Part shown: positions 12,882-56,888 of the stretch, piece by piece | Numbering within the stretch: the stretch's first letter is position 1 | Layout: every line of letters starts with the position of its first letter | Source: Luteimonas aquatica | GTDB lineage: Bacteria > Pseudomonadota > Gammaproteobacteria > Xanthomonadales > Xanthomonadaceae | Reading direction: 5' to 3' | Length of the DNA: 64,000 bases | NCBI RefSeq assembly: GCF_022662575.1 | Contig: NZ_JALBFU010000008.1 | Location: 1 to 64,000 of the forward strand | Notes under the pieces: model-generated | The model's input: only the letters and a program-made list of their open reading frames with translations | The model's database searches: none | What the model was told of the DNA's origin: nothing | Translations under genes and position numbers: made by a program

Positions 12882-12958
12882 TGGTCGGGGTAGCCGGATT
12901 TGAACCGACGACCACTTGTCCCCCAGACAAGTGCGCTACCAGGCTGCGCTATACCCCG
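12882..12958 (-). tRNA. tRNA-Pro (anticodon GGG)
   Basis: A 77-nt cloverleaf with encoded CCA. The acceptor starts CGGGGTA and ends TACCCCG-A-CCA, the anticodon loop is CTGGGGG inside a CTTGT/ACAAG stem, and the T loop GGTTCAAATCC is standard. It lies downstream of ihfA and merR on the same strand, a conserved position in this group, and abuts an integrase relic. Confidence 0.95.
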
Positions 12959-37240: not shown

Positions 37241-37315
37241 TGGTGGGCGGTACAGGGTTCGAACCTGTGACCCCTACCATGTCAAGGTAGTGCTCTACCG
37301 CTGAGCTAACCGCCC
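37241..37315 (-). tRNA. tRNA-Val (anticodon GAC)
   Basis: A 75-nt cloverleaf with encoded CCA: acceptor GGGCGGT/ACCGCCC, anticodon stem CTACC/GGTAG with loop TTGACAT, T arm ACAGGTTCGAACCTGT. It stands alone between the rhodanese fusion and uvrB. Confidence 0.95.
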
Positions 37316-40225: not shown

Positions 40226-40302
40226 TGGCGCCCGAAGTTGGACTCGAACCAACGACCCCCTGATTAACAGTCAAGTGCTCTAACCGGCTGAGCTATTCGG
40301 GC
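40226..40302 (-). tRNA. tRNA-Asn (anticodon GTT)
   Basis: A 77-nt cloverleaf with encoded CCA: acceptor GCCCGAA/TTCGGGC, discriminator G, anticodon loop CTGTTAA in a CTTGA/TCAGG stem, T arm TTGGTTCGAGTCCAA. It lies between the stand-alone pseudopilin and the end of the pil operon. Confidence 0.95.
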
Positions 40303-50789: not shown

Positions 50790-50840
50790 CACAATTTCTC
50801 TTGTTGGAGCGGGACTTTAGCTCACTCTCCCCCCAAAAAG

Positions 50841-50867
50841 AAAACGGCCGGGAGACCCGGCCGTTTT
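50841..50867. terminator. bidirectional intrinsic terminator after the Oar-like gene
   Basis: A perfect 12-bp stem (AAAACGGCCGGG / CCCGGCCGTTTT) with a 3-nt loop, flanked by A and T runs. It is 23 bp past the stop of the Oar-like receptor on the minus strand and separates it from ppnN. Confidence 0.9.
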
Positions 50868-50890
50868 CCAAGCTCGCACCCGAACCGGAA

Positions 50891-53800
50891 TCAGAACTGG
50901 TAGCGGAAACCCACCTGCACCGACCACTGCGAGACGCCCACGTTGAAGCCGTCGGCATCGGCGTTCGCGGGCGTGGAAGCCTCGGCGCCGGTGAAGTTGT
51001 AGACGTACTTGCCGCCGACGATGCTGGGAGCGTTCAGCACGGTCTTGTCGGCGAAGAAGCCGTAGTCGTAGATGTGGCCCCAGTCCTTGTTGATCAGGTT
51101 GCCCACGTTCTGGATGTCCAGCCAGATCTCGGCCTTGTTGTCCTTGAAGAAGCCGGGCAGTTCCTGGCTGATGCGCACGTCGAAGGTGTTCACCCAGCTG
51201 GCGCGGCCGGAGTTGGCCGGCGCGTAGCCGCCGCGGTAGCGGGCCAGCTCCGGGTGCTTGCCCAGCCACTCGAAGAAGGCCTTTTCCTTCGCCGGATCGG
51301 CGGTGAAGACGCCATTGCGGTAGGTGCCGAACAGCACGTCGCCGGGACCGTTGGGGACGTAGAACAGGTCGTTGTTGCGGCCGTCGCCGTTCACGTCGTT
51401 CGAGAACAGGTAGCTGTACGGACGGCCGCTGCGGCCTTCGTAGAACAGGCCGATCTCGGTCTTGTAGTCGCCGAAGAAGTTGTGCTTCCAGCTCAGCGCG
51501 CCGGTGATGCGGTGCTCGATCTCGTAGCGGGCGGTGGTGGCCTCGTCGGCGTTGTCCTGGAAGACGTAGTTGTAGTTCCAGCCCGAGGTCGCGGTGGAGC
51601 TGGTCAGGCCGCTGACTTCTTCCGCATTGGTATGCGTGTAGGCCAGGCTCCAGGACCAGTCGCTGCCGGGCGTCCAGGGCTTCTCAAGGCCGACCGTGAA
51701 CTGCTGGCTGCTGCCCTTGTGCGTGGTGTCGAGCAGCATGACCTGGTCGAAGCGCTTGTCGCGCTGCGAGCGGGCATTGCCCGACGCCCAGTCGGACGGC
51801 TTGTTCGGATCCCAGTACAGCAGGCGTCCGTCCTGCGCGATGCCGGTGGCCGTGCCCAGGTTGAGGTTGCGGTAGAACAGCGCGTTCTTGACCTTCGTCA
51901 GCAGCAGCTCGGCCGAGAACACGATGTTGTTCCAGGGCAGCTCGTGGTCGATCGCGAGGTTCGCCTTCCAGGTGGAGGGCTGCTCGAAGTCGGGGCTGAC
52001 GAAGTTGACGTTCTGGCGCTGGCTGGCCGGGTTGCCCGGCACCGGCTGGTTGTTGCCGTTGCCGTTGAACGGCAGGTCCTCCCAGTTCTCGCCCGAGTTG
52101 TGGAACTGGGTGTACTGGATGTAGTTCAGGCCGGTGGTGGAATAGGCATTGCTCAGCCACACCTGCGGCGAATCGCCCTGGAACAGGCCGACGCCGCCGC
52201 GCAGCTGGGTCGGACGCTCGCTGTTGAAGGTGTAGTTGAAGCCGAAGCGCGGCTGCCACAGGATGTCGCCGCTGAGCACCTTGCTGTTGTCGTAGCCGAA
52301 CACCTGCTGCGCAAGCGCGTTGTGCTCGGGGTTGACGTTGACGTCCGACTTGTCGCCGCGCAGGCCGAAGGTCAGGGTCAGGCGATCGTTGACGAACCAC
52401 TGGTCCTGCACGAACAGGCCGTAGTTCTTGTACTTGAACACGGCCGCGATGGAGTCGACGTCCTGGCCGGCGCGCGGCGTGCGCAGGTCGTAGCGGCTCC
52501 ACTCGCCGGCGGCGAAGCGGTCCATGCCGTAGAACTGGTAGACGCCGTAGACCTGCGGCCCGAACAGGTTGTAGATCTCGTTGTTCGAGTAGTCGAAGCC
52601 GAACTTCACGTCATGGTCGCCGGCGTGCCAGGTGGCCGCGCCGAACGCGTTCCAGGTCTTGGTCTCCAGCACGTTGGCCTGGGAGTTGGTCTCGGTGCCC
52701 AGGAAGATCGAGGCGCCGCTCGGGGCGACGTCGGGGTTCGAATAGTCGCCGTCCTCGGCGAAGAGGATCTCCACGCTCGGCGCATTGGTCGGGATGTTGC
52801 GCACCGCTGTGTAGTCGCGGTAGGAGACCTTGAACTCGGTCGAGAGCTTGTCGCTCCAGTCGCTGAACAGCTGCGCGACGTAGCTTTCGACCTTCTTGTC
52901 GTGCTGGTACCAGTACGAGCTGAGCGAGACCGCGCCGTCGTCGCCGGCGAAGAAGCCGTTCAGGCGCAGCTTGCTCTGGTCGATCTTGCTGTAGCGGAAG
53001 CTGGCGCGATGGTCGTCGTTGATGTTCCAGTCCAGCTTCACCGCGTACTCTTCCACGTCGGTGTCGGAGTTGGAGGCCAGGCTGCCGGCGGCAATGCCGA
53101 AGCCCTGCGCGATCTGCTGCGCGCGCGTGATGTCGGCGTCGGTCAGCGTGCCCTCGCCCAGCGGGCCGCTGGTGACGTCGGCGCCCGGGGCGGCCTGCTT
53201 GAACTTGTCGTAGTTGACGAAGAAGAACAGCTTGTCCTTGATCAGCGGACCGCCCAGCGTGAAGCCGTAGTTCTCTTCCTTCTTGAAGCCGGCGAATTCG
53301 TTGCGGCGGCCGCTGGCGTCCGGCGGATCGTCGCCGACCATGCTGTCGTCGCGGTAGGTGCCGTACACCGAGCCGTGGAAATCGTTGGTGCCCGACTTGG
53401 TCACGGCGTCGACCACCGCGCCGGTGGCGCCGGTGATGGTGACGTCGTAGTTGGCCAGGTCGATGTTGATCGCCTCGATCGCTTCCATCGCCACCGGCTG
53501 GCGGCGGGTCGGCATGTTGTTGCCTTCCAGGCCGAAGGTGTCGCTGGCGGAGACGCCGTCGATGCGGATGGCGTTGTAGCGCGGGTTCTGGCCGCCGGCG
53601 CTGATGCTGCCCGAGGCGCGGTCGATGAAGGCCACGCGCGGATCGGTGCGCATGTAGTCCTGGATGTTGCCGCCGATCGAGGGCAGCGCCTCGATCGTCT
53701 CGCGGGTCACGTTGGTGCCGGTGCCCATCTTGGTGGCGCTGAAGATTTCCGAGCCGCCGGCGGCGACCGCCTGCACGGTGCCCAGGGTGGTGACGTCGTT

Positions 53801-54142
53801 CTTCAGCTGCGCGTCGACGGTGCTGATCTGGCTCAGGCCGAGGTAGACGTTCTCCTCGGTGTCCGTACCGGAACCGGCCTTGTTGACCGTGATGCTGTAC
53901 GGACCGCCCACGCGCAGGCCGCGCGCGGTGTAGCGGCCGTTGGCGTCGGTGGTGGCGCGGCTGACCGTGCCCGACTCGACGTGGGTGATGGTGACTTCGG
54001 CACCCGCGACCGGCTGCCCGTCGGCGCCGGTGACCGTACCGCCGACGCCGGCGGAGGTGTTTTGTGCGAAGGCGGGCGCTGCGGCGAGCGCGGCGATCAG
54101 ACCGAGCGACAGCTTGGAGAGTCGGACGCGGTTATGTTTCAT
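50891..54142 (-). CDS. Oar-like TonB-dependent receptor with carboxypeptidase-regulatory domain
   Basis: A 1083-residue outer-membrane protein. The signal peptide (LSLGLIAALAAAPAFAQ) is followed by a CarboxypepD_reg-like beta-sandwich (about 28-115; GGTVTGADGQPVAGAEVTI, DANGRYTARGL), the plug (about 130-270) and a large barrel ending VGFRYQF. This architecture is that of Oar proteins of myxobacteria and Xanthomonadales, implicated in uptake of large substrates or in protein export to the surface. The ATG at 54142 is chosen for its clean signal sequence. A direct repeat of GTTAACA lies about 115 bp upstream. The substrate is unknown. Confidence 0.9.
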   Translation of the reverse strand: MKHNRVRLSKLSLGLIAALAAAPAFAQNTSAGVGGTVTGADGQPVAGAEVTITHVESGTVSRATTDANGRYTARGLRVGGPYSITVNKAGSGTDTEENVYLGLSQISTVDAQLKNDVTTLGTVQAVAAGGSEIFSATKMGTGTNVTRETIEALPSIGGNIQDYMRTDPRVAFIDRASGSISAGGQNPRYNAIRIDGVSASDTFGLEGNNMPTRRQPVAMEAIEAINIDLANYDVTITGATGAVVDAVTKSGTNDFHGSVYGTYRDDSMVGDDPPDASGRRNEFAGFKKEENYGFTLGGPLIKDKLFFFVNYDKFKQAAPGADVTSGPLGEGTLTDADITRAQQIAQGFGIAAGSLASNSDTDVEEYAVKLDWNINDDHRASFRYSKIDQSKLRLNGFFAGDDGAVSLSSYWYQHDKKVESYVAQLFSDWSDKLSTEFKVSYRDYTAVRNIPTNAPSVEILFAEDGDYSNPDVAPSGASIFLGTETNSQANVLETKTWNAFGAATWHAGDHDVKFGFDYSNNEIYNLFGPQVYGVYQFYGMDRFAAGEWSRYDLRTPRAGQDVDSIAAVFKYKNYGLFVQDQWFVNDRLTLTFGLRGDKSDVNVNPEHNALAQQVFGYDNSKVLSGDILWQPRFGFNYTFNSERPTQLRGGVGLFQGDSPQVWLSNAYSTTGLNYIQYTQFHNSGENWEDLPFNGNGNNQPVPGNPASQRQNVNFVSPDFEQPSTWKANLAIDHELPWNNIVFSAELLLTKVKNALFYRNLNLGTATGIAQDGRLLYWDPNKPSDWASGNARSQRDKRFDQVMLLDTTHKGSSQQFTVGLEKPWTPGSDWSWSLAYTHTNAEEVSGLTSSTATSGWNYNYVFQDNADEATTARYEIEHRITGALSWKHNFFGDYKTEIGLFYEGRSGRPYSYLFSNDVNGDGRNNDLFYVPNGPGDVLFGTYRNGVFTADPAKEKAFFEWLGKHPELARYRGGYAPANSGRASWVNTFDVRISQELPGFFKDNKAEIWLDIQNVGNLINKDWGHIYDYGFFADKTVLNAPSIVGGKYVYNFTGAEASTPANADADGFNVGVSQWSVQVGFRYQF

Positions 54143-54469
54143 CGATGATGGCCTCGGAACAGATTTAGACGGATGACACGCGCGTGATCGCGCGATCGAA
54201 ATGATGTTCTGTGAGGGATTTCCCCAACCCCTCGGCTGCACGTGGCACTCACGCGGGGTTAACAACAGGTTAACACGGTAGCCCGCCCGGATGACAGTGA
54301 AATGACGGTTTTTCGCCGAAGGCGATCACGGCCTTGCAGCGCAACGGGAATCGGCTCGAGCCCTGACTCTAAAATGTCATCCCGGCCTGCCGCGGAGGCG
54401 ATCTAGCGGCACTGTCTGCCGGCCTGCCTCAGCAATCCCGGCTAAGTGGCTGAGGCCCGGTCGGGCCGA
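54143..54469. promoter_or_regulatory. upstream region of the Oar-like gene with GTTAACA repeats
   Basis: These 327 bp hold no gene. Two direct GTTAACA copies (54258-54264 and 54269-54275) are 11 bp apart, about one helical turn, in a comparatively AT-rich patch upstream of the Oar-like gene. They could be a tandem regulator site or part of a promoter. The other side ends at the marC stop. Confidence 0.4.
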
Positions 54470-55069
54470 TCAGGGGGTGGCGCCCAGGCCCAGGTAGGCG
54501 CTGATGCCGTCCAGGAACATCTGCACCGAGATCGCCACCAGCAGCATGCCCATCAGCCGCTCGATGGCGGTCAGGACGCGGCCGCCGAGAACCTTGTAGA
54601 GCATGGTGGCCGAGAGCAGGATCACCGCCGTCGCCCCCCAGGCGATCAGCAGGGCCAGGCTCCAGTCGCCCAGGCGCGCCGGGTCGTTGCTGCCCATCAG
54701 CATCACCGCGGCCATGCCCGAGGGCCCGGCGATCATCGGGATCGCCACCGGCACGATGAAGGGCTCCCCGCCCGGCAGCTCGCCCATCAGGCCTTCCGGC
54801 GGCGGGAAGATCATGCGGATGCCGATCAGGAACAGCACGATGCCGCCGGCGATCGACACCGATTCCTGCCGCAGGTGCATCAGTTCCAGCGCGTACTTGC
54901 CGAACCACAGGAACAGCAGCAGCACCGCCAGCGCGATCACAAGCTCGCGGATCAGCACCATGCGCTGGCGCTTGGGCGTGAGCGGACGCAACAGGCTGAG
55001 CACCACCGGCACGTTGCCCAGCGGATCGAGGATGATGAACAGCAGCAGCGCGGCCGAGGCGATCGACAT
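54470..55069 (-). CDS. MarC family integral membrane protein
   Basis: A 199-residue inner-membrane protein with six hydrophobic segments, the usual size of the MarC/UPF0056 family. Family marks are FIILDPLGNVPVVLSLL at the start, GGIVLFLIGIRMIF and the PVAIPMIAGPSGMAAVML segment. The family has no settled function; the old link to multiple antibiotic resistance was withdrawn. The ATG at 55069 is 4 bp after the SDR stop, so it belongs to the grxD-SDR-marC unit. Confidence 0.9.
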   Translation of the reverse strand: MSIASAALLLFIILDPLGNVPVVLSLLRPLTPKRQRMVLIRELVIALAVLLLFLWFGKYALELMHLRQESVSIAGGIVLFLIGIRMIFPPPEGLMGELPGGEPFIVPVAIPMIAGPSGMAAVMLMGSNDPARLGDWSLALLIAWGATAVILLSATMLYKVLGGRVLTAIERLMGMLLVAISVQMFLDGISAYLGLGATP

Positions 55070-55073
55070 GGCG

Positions 55074-55847
55074 TTACGCGCGCGGCGCCCAGATCGCGCC
55101 GCGATGCTCGGCGCCGGCCGGGGAGAGCAGCCGCACGCAGGCCTCGGCATAGGCGGCCGGATCGCGGGCCTGCCGGTCGTCTTCCTCCACGTAGGCCTTC
55201 GAGCGCAGCACGGTGCGCATCGGCCCCGGCTGCAGGCCGCTCACACGCACCGGCGTGCTGGCCAGCTCGGCCTGCAGCATGCCGACCAGGCCCGCGCCAC
55301 CATGCTGCGCCAGGCCGTAGCCGCCCCAGTAGGCGGCGCCGGTGCGCGCCGGATCGTCGAGCGCGAACACGATGGCGCCGTCCTCGGCGCGCTTGAGCAG
55401 CGGCAGGCAGGCCTGCGTCAGCCACCAACGCGCCGTCAGGTTGACGTGCACCGCGCGCGCGAAGTCGGCCGGATCGGTGCGCTCCATCGACGCCAGGCCC
55501 TTGAACTCGGCGGCGCAATGCAGCAGCCCGTCGAGGCGGCCGAGGCCCGACTCCAGGCGCGCGGCCAGTTCGGCGTAGTCGTCGGGCGAGGCGCCCTCCA
55601 GATCGAGCGGATAGTTGGCCGGCTCCGCGGCCGTCGTCTCCTGGCGGATCGCGTCGTAGACGCGATTGAGCCTGGGCACCTTGCGGCCGAGCAGCACCAG
55701 CGTGGCCCCCGCGCGCGCGCAGGCGAGCGCGGCGGCGCGGCCGAGGCCGCCGTAGGCACCGCTCACCAGGATCACCCGGCCCGCGAGCGCGGAACCGGCC
55801 TGCGGATCCCGCGTCGCGGCCGCGTCGTCGGCCCGCACCGCGCTCAC
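55074..55847 (-). CDS. YciK-like short-chain dehydrogenase with altered active site
   Basis: A 257-residue SDR. The cofactor motif is VSGAYGGLGRAAAL near residue 28 and LLHCAAEF replaces the NNAG motif. The catalytic tetrad is damaged: where YciK has Ser in SSSVG this protein has LDDP, and the YxxxK reads YGLAQ, so Lys is replaced by Gln. The Tyr is kept. Redox activity is therefore doubtful; it may only bind nucleotide. The start is a GTG at 55847 that overlaps the grxD stop as GTGA, so the genes are translationally coupled. An SDR next to grxD is unusual enough to suggest a joint role that I cannot name. Confidence 0.85.
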   Translation of the reverse strand: MSAVRADDAAATRDPQAGSALAGRVILVSGAYGGLGRAAALACARAGATLVLLGRKVPRLNRVYDAIRQETTAAEPANYPLDLEGASPDDYAELAARLESGLGRLDGLLHCAAEFKGLASMERTDPADFARAVHVNLTARWWLTQACLPLLKRAEDGAIVFALDDPARTGAAYWGGYGLAQHGGAGLVGMLQAELASTPVRVSGLQPGPMRTVLRSKAYVEEDDRQARDPAAYAEACVRLLSPAGAEHRGAIWAPRA

Positions 55848-56164
55848 GCCTTCTGCACTTCCGAGATCATGCGCGCCAGCTCGCCGGACTCGTACAGCTC
55901 CAGCGTGATGTCGCAGCCGCCGATCAGCTCACCGTGGATGAACAGCTGCGGGAACGTCGGCCAGTTGGAATAGCGCGGCAGGTTGGCGCGGATCTCCGGC
56001 TCCTCGAGCACGTTGATGGTGTGCAGCTCGCCCGCGCCGGCGGCCTTCAGGGCCTGCACGGTACGGCTGGAGAAGCCGCACATGGGGAACTGCGGCGTGC
56101 CCTTCATGAAGAGGACGATGGGGTGGCCTTCGACTTCGGCCTGGATGCGCTCGAGGACGGGCAT
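55844..56164 (-). CDS. grxD: monothiol glutaredoxin Grx4
   Basis: A 106-residue monothiol glutaredoxin with the intact FPMCGFS active site near residue 30, WPTFPQLF with cis-Pro, and GGCDITLEL. These proteins bind a glutathione-ligated [2Fe-2S] cluster and pass it to acceptors. A GGAG box precedes the ATG at 56164. The gene is divergent from the SOD-like gene, with 139 bp between, and coupled to the downstream SDR. Confidence 0.96.
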   Translation of the reverse strand: MPVLERIQAEVEGHPIVLFMKGTPQFPMCGFSSRTVQALKAAGAGELHTINVLEEPEIRANLPRYSNWPTFPQLFIHGELIGGCDITLELYESGELARMISEVQKA

Positions 56165-56303
56165 TGCGGAAAACTCCTGCGCGGCACGGGCTGCGGCGAT
56201 GCGCCGGAAGCCGTGGGTCGTGCTTGTGGGGTGGGAATTGCATATTGTAAGCCCCGGAGCCCGCAGCGGCGGCGCTCCACGCCCCTTTTCCCCCGAACGG
56301 CAC

Positions 56304-56888
56304 ATGAGCATCGAACCTTCCCCCCTGCCCTACGACCGCAGCGCCCTGGAACCGCACCTGTCCGCCGATACGGTGGAAGCCCATCACGGCCGGCAGCAGG
56401 CCCTGATCGAGCAGGTCAACGCCGCCGTGGCCGGGACCGAACTGGCCGAGCTGCCGCTGCAGGAGATCGTGCGCCGGGCGCAGGGTGCGCTGTTCAACCA
56501 CGCCTCGCAGGCCTGGAACGATGCCTTCTACTGGGAAGGCCTGCGGCCCTCCGCCGGCGGCGGTGGCGGCGAGCCGGAAGGACGCCTGGCCGAGGCCATC
56601 AACAGGACCTTCGGCGATTTCGCGCGCTTCAAGGCGCAATTCGCCGGCGTCGCCGAGCGCCTGTTCGGTTCGGGCTGGCTGTGGCTGCTGCAGCGCGGAG
56701 ACGGCGCGCTGGCCGTGGCCGCCACCGCCAACGCGGCTTCGCCGCTCACCGGCGAGGACACGCCGCTGCTGGCCTGCTGCCTGTGGGAGCACGCCTACTA
56801 CCTCGACTACCGCCACGCGCGCGGCAAATACCTCGAGGCGTTCTGGAACATCGTGGATTGGCGCGCGGTGGACGCGCGCATGAAGTAA
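56304..56888 (+). CDS. superoxide dismutase homologue with altered metal ligands
   Basis: A 194-residue protein alignable end to end with Fe-SOD SodB (PHLSADTVEAHHG, FNHASQAWNDAFYW, WEHAYYLDY). Of the four ligands of SodB, His26 and His160 correspond to His27 and His163, but His73 is Asp73 (WNDAFYW) and Asp156 is Cys159 (ACCLWEH). The second-shell Tyr34 and His30 equivalents are Ile35 and Gln31. The nucleotide reading is unambiguous (AAC GAT GCC; TGC TGC CTG). The fold should be kept, but ordinary Fe/Mn dismutation is unlikely. It may bind another metal or act without one. It is divergent from grxD. Confidence 0.9.
   Translation: MSIEPSPLPYDRSALEPHLSADTVEAHHGRQQALIEQVNAAVAGTELAELPLQEIVRRAQGALFNHASQAWNDAFYWEGLRPSAGGGGGEPEGRLAEAINRTFGDFARFKAQFAGVAERLFGSGWLWLLQRGDGALAVAATANAASPLTGEDTPLLACCLWEHAYYLDYRHARGKYLEAFWNIVDWRAVDARMK

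Follow-up and report, generated by a model that had tools for sequence, protein, structure and literature searches.

We analysed a window of 64,000 nucleotides at the start of a contig from Luteimonas aquatica, whose genome assembly comprises 3,825,884 bases in 52 contigs. The gene of interest is a forward-strand reading frame that opens with ATG, encodes 194 amino acids and contains no internal stop (Table 1), so the intact frame and proper start described in the initial annotation stand. It lies head to head with grxD, with 139 bp between the two starts; some of our grxD searches used 55844-56167, which reaches one codon beyond the likely start of that gene. Apart from the three tRNA genes in Table 1, no Rfam family scored above threshold within the window.

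Table 1. Features of the window, with the codons that correspond to the iron site of E. coli SodB.
Feature	Coordinates	Strand	Basis
sodB orthologue (pseudo-SodB, 194-residue SOD-fold protein whose iron site is incomplete)	56304..56888	+	ORF, Pfam, alignment, model
H27 codon, iron ligand His26, kept	56382..56384	+	Alignment to E. coli SodB
R30/Q31, site of one-residue deletion in helix 1	56391..56396	+	Alignments
D73 codon, iron ligand His73, replaced	56520..56522	+	Alignment
C159 codon, iron ligand Asp156, replaced	56778..56780	+	Alignment
H163 codon, iron ligand His160, kept	56790..56792	+	Alignment
grxD, Grx4-family monothiol glutaredoxin, divergent neighbour	55844..56164	-	TIGR00365, 141.6 bits (cut-off 117.1)
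SDR-family oxidoreductase, conserved neighbour, next after grxD	55074..55847	-	Pfam, neighbourhood comparison
MarC-family membrane protein, conserved neighbour, after the SDR gene	54470..55150	-	Profile matches, neighbourhood comparison
tRNA Pro (ggg)	12882-12958	-	Rfam
tRNA Val (gac)	37241-37315	-	Rfam
tRNA Asn (gtt)	40226-40302	-	Rfam

The protein has the two-domain superoxide dismutase (SOD) fold over its full length, as judged from Pfam and from the predicted model. Both Pfam domains scored above their curated cut-offs (Sod_Fe_N, 62.5 bits; Sod_Fe_C, 121.2 bits), and a sequence search of the PDB returned SODs as the best matches, with Fe-SODs on top. The AlphaFold2 model has a mean pLDDT of 96.1, and its best Foldseek match was the E. 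coli FeSOD 1isa, with an rmsd of 0.9 Å, a TM score of 0.95 and 49% identity across 193 columns, which agrees with the earlier reading that the whole SodB fold can be aligned. The NCBIfam equivalog for iron SOD (PRK10543) gave 230.9 bits against a cut-off of 348, a shortfall that says little. We presume that the E. coli enzyme belongs to the subfamily named SodFM2 in the nomenclature of PMC10172142.

We compared the active site with E. coli K-12 SodB and the structures 1isa and 1dt0, counting residues of the window protein from Met as 1 and numbering ligands as in mature E. coli SodB. The iron ligands, which we take to be His26, His73, Asp156 and His160 in agreement with the aligned letters, are represented in the window protein by H, D, C and H. 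Thus two His ligands remain as H27 and H163, while D73 stands in place of His73 and C159 in place of Asp156, exactly as first proposed. Gln69 is kept, as in E. coli SodB. A Cys just before position 156 is usual in ligand-intact relatives (58/65 rows, 4 not scored) and, since Asp156 itself has become Cys, the window protein carries a Cys-Cys pair, C158-C159.

The gateway formed by Tyr34 and His30 is also missing. The deletion in helix 1 preserves neither Tyr34 nor the His30/His31 register, and because of it the residue calls in this stretch depend on gap placement: HMMER sets the gap opposite E. coli His31, so that Q31 corresponds to His30, whereas MAFFT sets it opposite His30, so that Q31 corresponds to His31. 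Of the Ile and Gln originally assigned to Tyr34 and His30, the Gln holds under the first placement only and the Ile under neither, as Tyr34 pairs with Leu34 in both alignments. Overall, the window protein resembles E. coli FeSOD in its fold, its place near grxD, its two His ligands and Gln69, but differs from it in the replacement of His73 by Asp, Asp156 by Cys and Tyr34 by Leu, and in the shortened helix 1. Judged from these residues, the protein would no longer bind catalytic iron and, given the known chemistry of Fe/Mn-SODs, loss of the iron site makes it very probable that dismutase activity has gone as well.

The gene is orthologous to sodB; it still occupies the ancestral locus and has been inherited vertically. 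A divergent grxD stands beside sodB in 93 of the 94 distinct Xanthomonadaceae loci with enough flanking sequence, at canonical and eroded copies alike, and in E. coli K-12 the gene order is grxD-mepH-sodB. The possibility of a new paralogue or an acquired gene was rejected on these grounds, the locus being identical to that of canonical sodB. The position opposite grxD had been taken to suggest a link to iron-sulphur or redox homeostasis; because canonical sodB occupies the same place across the family, it is no evidence for an iron-sulphur link of this variant. The nearest named relative that we found belongs to Luteimonas panaciterrae (L033, whose contig is apparently that of L004), at 77% identity. 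This copy carries the identical Asp and Cys, which makes sequencing error an unlikely source of D73 and C159.

To place the substitutions in the genus, we searched 52 Luteimonas genomes and read 49 sodB orthologues. At least one metal ligand is missing in 47 of the 49, the exceptions being L005 and the doubtful L010. The latter (G038:C46:5389-5973), counted among the 49 despite the doubt, keeps its ligands, groups with other genera and is the sole locus of the 94 not adjacent to grxD; it may possibly sit on a contaminant contig, the G038 assembly having about 570 contigs. With the decayed L131 set aside, 46 ligand-lost sequences entered the joint residue count, in which the residues at positions 73 and 156 are Asn/Ser in 14, Thr/Cys in 9, Leu/Ser in 6, Glu/Cys in 5, Asp/Cys in 4 and Thr/Ser in 3, with five pairs seen once each. 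His73 has given way to Asn, Thr, Leu, Asp, Glu, Gln or Cys, and Asp156 mostly to Ser or Cys. The other two ligands, His26 and His160, are both retained in 43/46 sequences, and His26 is also gone in 3/46.

By this count the iron site is lost across the genus, with no single new site in common. The initial annotation had asked whether a clade shares D73 and C159 and had proposed that two His, one Asp and one Cys could bind another metal. Relatives do have ligand loss, but the exact pair recurs in just 4/46 sequences (Glu/Cys in 5/46) and the others carry different residues, so that a D73/C156 site was rejected as a shared rule; in the window protein alone, a site of two His, Asp and Cys may exist. 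The combination of an acidic residue at 73 with Cys156 occurs in two separate groups, one comprising the window protein and L. panaciterrae and the other seven rows of another clade.

Outside Luteimonas the ligands are nearly always intact. All four are kept in 76/76 SODs of a wider alignment (75 loci and E. coli), a set found with patterns from the window query and not a random sample, and in 60/61 sodB copies from other Xanthomonadaceae genera, these 61 genomes being a subset of 241 outside the genus. The sole loss among the 61 is L149 (G177:C32:30854-31405, genus code g25), which has Gln26, Leu73, Asn156 and His160 at the four positions and whose genome also carries an intact SodA-type SOD. 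In addition, several other genera have a half-way sodB in which Tyr34, His30 or Gln69 is replaced and the ligands are kept; L175, for example, has Cys30 and Glu34 with all four ligands in place.

The number of losses depends on which tree is read. In a quick SodB tree built without the active-site columns, the 46 lost Luteimonas rows form one clade (SH-aLRT 95), so that one loss in Luteimonas and one in L149 are needed; this tree omitted L001, L003, L033, L038, L051, L131, L132, L148, L154, L177 and L200. In the tree of the neighbouring genes, the ligand-intact L005 is instead sister to the window gene and L. panaciterrae (support 98), a placement that would call for two or more losses within Luteimonas unless ligands were regained. 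Holding 28 lost rows together cost 29 log units on the neighbour genes (AU p 0.094), a group that was named after the tree had been seen; a single Luteimonas clade is thus disfavoured without being rejected, and the SodB data are indifferent to the alternative topology (0.81 log units, p 0.48). The neighbour-gene test left out L034, L036, L138, L139, L144, L148, L179 and L193, and the SodB test L130, L149, L153 and L155. Likewise, whether there are two separate eroded lineages varies with the tree, with two in the neighbour-gene tree and one in the SodB tree; the latter does not show separate erosion, because the eroded other genera and the lost Luteimonas rows join in one clade (98). We regard two or more losses within Luteimonas as likelier than one.

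A second SOD is present in 50/52 Luteimonas genomes and, going by its residues, we take it to be of the Mn type (SodA); the L. aquatica genome itself has one with an intact site (L001). SodA presence was assigned by hand and then compared with a hand-copied version of the search list; one SOD match came from G038 and none from G034. Ligands and Tyr34 are intact in all 55 Mn-type sequences from the 50 genomes. The relation between the two genes was examined in the 61 Xanthomonadaceae genomes outside the genus that have a sodB and whose SodA status is established, counting as altered any change at a ligand, His30, Tyr34 or Gln69. An altered sodB occurs in 17/23 genomes with SodA versus 0/38 without (Fisher p 1.9e-10, ignoring relatedness), and SodA and an unaltered sodB stand together in 6 genomes. 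The link is phylogenetically clustered: supported branches yield 3 independent pairs, and over 200 pairings the sodB change went in the expected direction 2.6 times on average and never in the opposite one (sign test median p 0.25, three pairs only). The contig-cut L148 was wrongly coded as lost in the tree used for this link, and the 5 changes on that tree are one too many; the tallies exclude its genome, G275, and G242 gave no sodB match. The co-occurrence suggests that SodA took over dismutation.

Two of the 38 genomes without SodA, G059 and G071, have a different, more distant second SOD beside a canonical sodB. L229 (G059:C4:227915-228517) has intact ligands, but its Tyr34 is replaced by Ala and its residue 69 is Ser; L231 of G071 has Phe34.

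Selection on the ligand-lost gene was measured in 15 close, non-overlapping pairs, hand-picked as close relatives and not all supported as sister pairs in the SodB tree. Their dN/dS (NG86) is 0.04-0.36 with a median of 0.13, the highest value belonging to the window gene and L. panaciterrae; the median is 0.08 for sodA of the same pairs and 0.05 for grxD in the 10 pairs available. Values for distant pairs, which reach at least 1.06, were not used because saturated dS inflates them. When the same nucleotide differences were redistributed neutrally, each of 500 draws gave more amino-acid changes than were observed, and this held in 15/15 pairs. Relative to neighbouring proteins, SodB evolves at a rate of 1.47 in lost rows (28), 2.04 in half-way rows (18) and 0.60 in canonical rows (45), so that ligand-lost SodB is about 2.4 times faster than canonical SodB. 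On these sequence comparisons constraint is relaxed, not gone, and the window gene combines lost catalytic residues with a coding sequence under selection, as a pseudoenzyme does. The view that the substitutions are not random decay is thus upheld by the intact frame, the relatives with ligand loss and purifying selection. Absence of such relatives together with relaxed selection had been named as counting against it, and here the answer is mixed: relatives exist, and selection, although relaxed, is clearly present.

Retention is not complete. No sodB stands beside grxD in G002, G043 and G034, and G029 has a strongly diverged, decayed copy; the frame beside grxD in G043 now resembles what we take to be purK. 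Internal stops are found in none of the listed SOD matches from Luteimonas genomes. In G002, away from grxD, there is a distant SOD-like stretch (L132, G002:C22:288703-289038; 38% identity over 111 residues) within a frame of 411 codons.

Thirty-six positions that are fixed in canonical SodB vary in the lost rows. They include ligands 73 and 156, the gateway position 34, and positions 64, 65, 118, 120, 159 and 163, which we take to be at the dimer interface. As the 36 are scattered over the protein, we dropped the idea of a drift focused on the active site and the dimer interface. Across the 46 lost rows, conservation reaches 95% or more at 39 positions, including Trp71, 77, 122, 124, 158, 178 and 183; only positions 59, 70, 107 and 157 are fixed to a different but similar residue, and seven (92, 93, 95, 114, 151, 176 and 189) are slightly more constrained than before. 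To us this pattern speaks of a fold that has been kept, not of a site built anew.

We consider it fairly probable that sodB in Luteimonas encodes a SOD pseudoenzyme that was kept for a role other than catalysis once SodA had taken over dismutation. Under this model, ancestral SodB would have had a second, non-catalytic role before any ligand was lost. Once SodA covered dismutation, only that role would have been selected, and the active site and other parts of the protein could drift while the fold stayed. Selection and retention together suggest that such a role keeps the protein; its kind is a guess, a protein-binding scaffold in the cytosol seeming most likely. Eroded SodB has been kept both in Luteimonas and in a group of other SodA-carrying genera, which favours a second role of long standing over one that arose repeatedly, insofar as these are separate lineages, a point on which the trees differ. 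Against this model count the absence or decay of the gene in four genomes, its faster evolution, the 36 newly variable positions, the phylogenetic clustering of the link with SodA and the six genomes that combine SodA with an unaltered sodB. No partner protein was found, and the joint retention of His26 and His160 might reflect continued binding of some kind.

Another course of events would be slow decay, in which redundant SodB has no function left and the open frames are remnants on their way out. The three genomes without sodB and the fourth with a decayed copy would fit such decay, as would the faster evolution than in canonical lineages, the highly varied residues at the dead site and the dN/dS of 0.36 that gives the window pair the top value of the 15. 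Yet we think it rather unlikely, as it sits poorly with amino-acid changes below neutral expectation in every close pair, with the lack of internal stops in the listed matches and with the 39 strongly conserved positions. If instead the site had been remodelled, His27, His163, Asp73 and Cys159, perhaps with Cys158, might hold a metal (zinc, copper or iron) or act as a thiol switch, and the persistence of both His ligands, the acidic residue and Cys156 in 9/46 sequences and a Cys-Cys pair at the positions equivalent to 155-156 in 15/46 (4 rows not scored) could be accounted for in this way. However, 36/46 sequences carry Asn, Thr, Leu, Gln or Cys at position 73 and 25/46 carry Ser at 156, which leaves no common ligand set, and His26 itself is sometimes lost; a remodelled site thus appears improbable.

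A narrower variant would have at least two losses in Luteimonas, each removing His73 and Asp156 together, with some lineages left holding an acidic residue at 73, Cys156 and two His; there the dead pocket might serve as a thiol- or zinc-based sensor of redox or metal state for a partner while SodA dismutates. This we offer as speculation with a small chance of being right. Smaller still is the chance that the protein is a weak or unusual SOD that works with its remaining ligands. In its favour, the predicted fold persists, as do two His ligands, Gln69 and the Trp residues that surround the site, but the protein lacks the Tyr34 gateway and two of its four first-shell ligands, and an intact Mn-type SOD is at hand in nearly every genome of the genus.

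Fe/Mn-SODs are usually seen as a family with invariant ligands and an evolving second sphere. The yeast mitoribosomal proteins mS42 and mS43 (Mrp1/Rsm26) are known as SOD-fold structural proteins without metal sites, to which the proposed pseudoenzyme may be likened, although they differ in being eukaryotic ribosomal subunits. In published accounts mS42/mS43 form a heterodimer (PMC8998825) and stabilise rRNA (PMC9892005); the word superoxide is absent from the main texts of both papers. The proteins PAP9 and PAP4, associated with the plastid RNA polymerase, likewise have an FeSOD fold (Foldseek matches 8qma_L and 7bjk_A) and are part of a large complex, but PAP9 is a superoxide dismutase by the title of PMC8278866, unlike a ligand-free pseudoenzyme.

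One related case is in the same family. According to passages of PMC6322740, the Xanthomonas citri FeSOD Xac3/XAC2677 has Cys for His31 and Glu for Tyr35 (numbering of that paper), its catalytic activity was judged unlikely with these two active-site changes, deletion of sodM could not be achieved, and the authors took the probable inactivity of FeSOD as specific to Xanthomonas. Thus Xac3/XAC2677 shares with our protein a Xanthomonadaceae host and an eroded SodB alongside an active MnSOD. Its changes match the Cys30 and Glu34 of L175, which keeps all four metal ligands, whereas Luteimonas has lost the ligands themselves; a milder form of the erosion was, going by those passages, already suspected in X. 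citri, and ligand loss is what Luteimonas adds. Among the matches listed, this paper is the sole near precedent for a ligand-free SodB. The passages of PMC10172142 concern metal preference, and Xanthomon, inactive and pseudo are absent from its main text. Independent support for such a role comes from Stenotrophomonas maltophilia, for which PMC6479884 reports that cells without SodB are hardly less viable under the conditions assayed, suggests a further function for SodB and states that its metal ligands are conserved. That suggestion of a second role becomes testable here.

Ligand loss in Luteimonas, the half-way genera and SodA as a predictor together make a natural series from enzyme to pseudoenzyme. 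Such sodB copies, if annotated as superoxide dismutases from their domains alone, probably are not.

Elsewhere in the window, a 1124-residue reading frame on the reverse strand (50801-54265) is almost wholly overlapped by an 1115-residue frame on the forward strand, which high G+C content probably explains.
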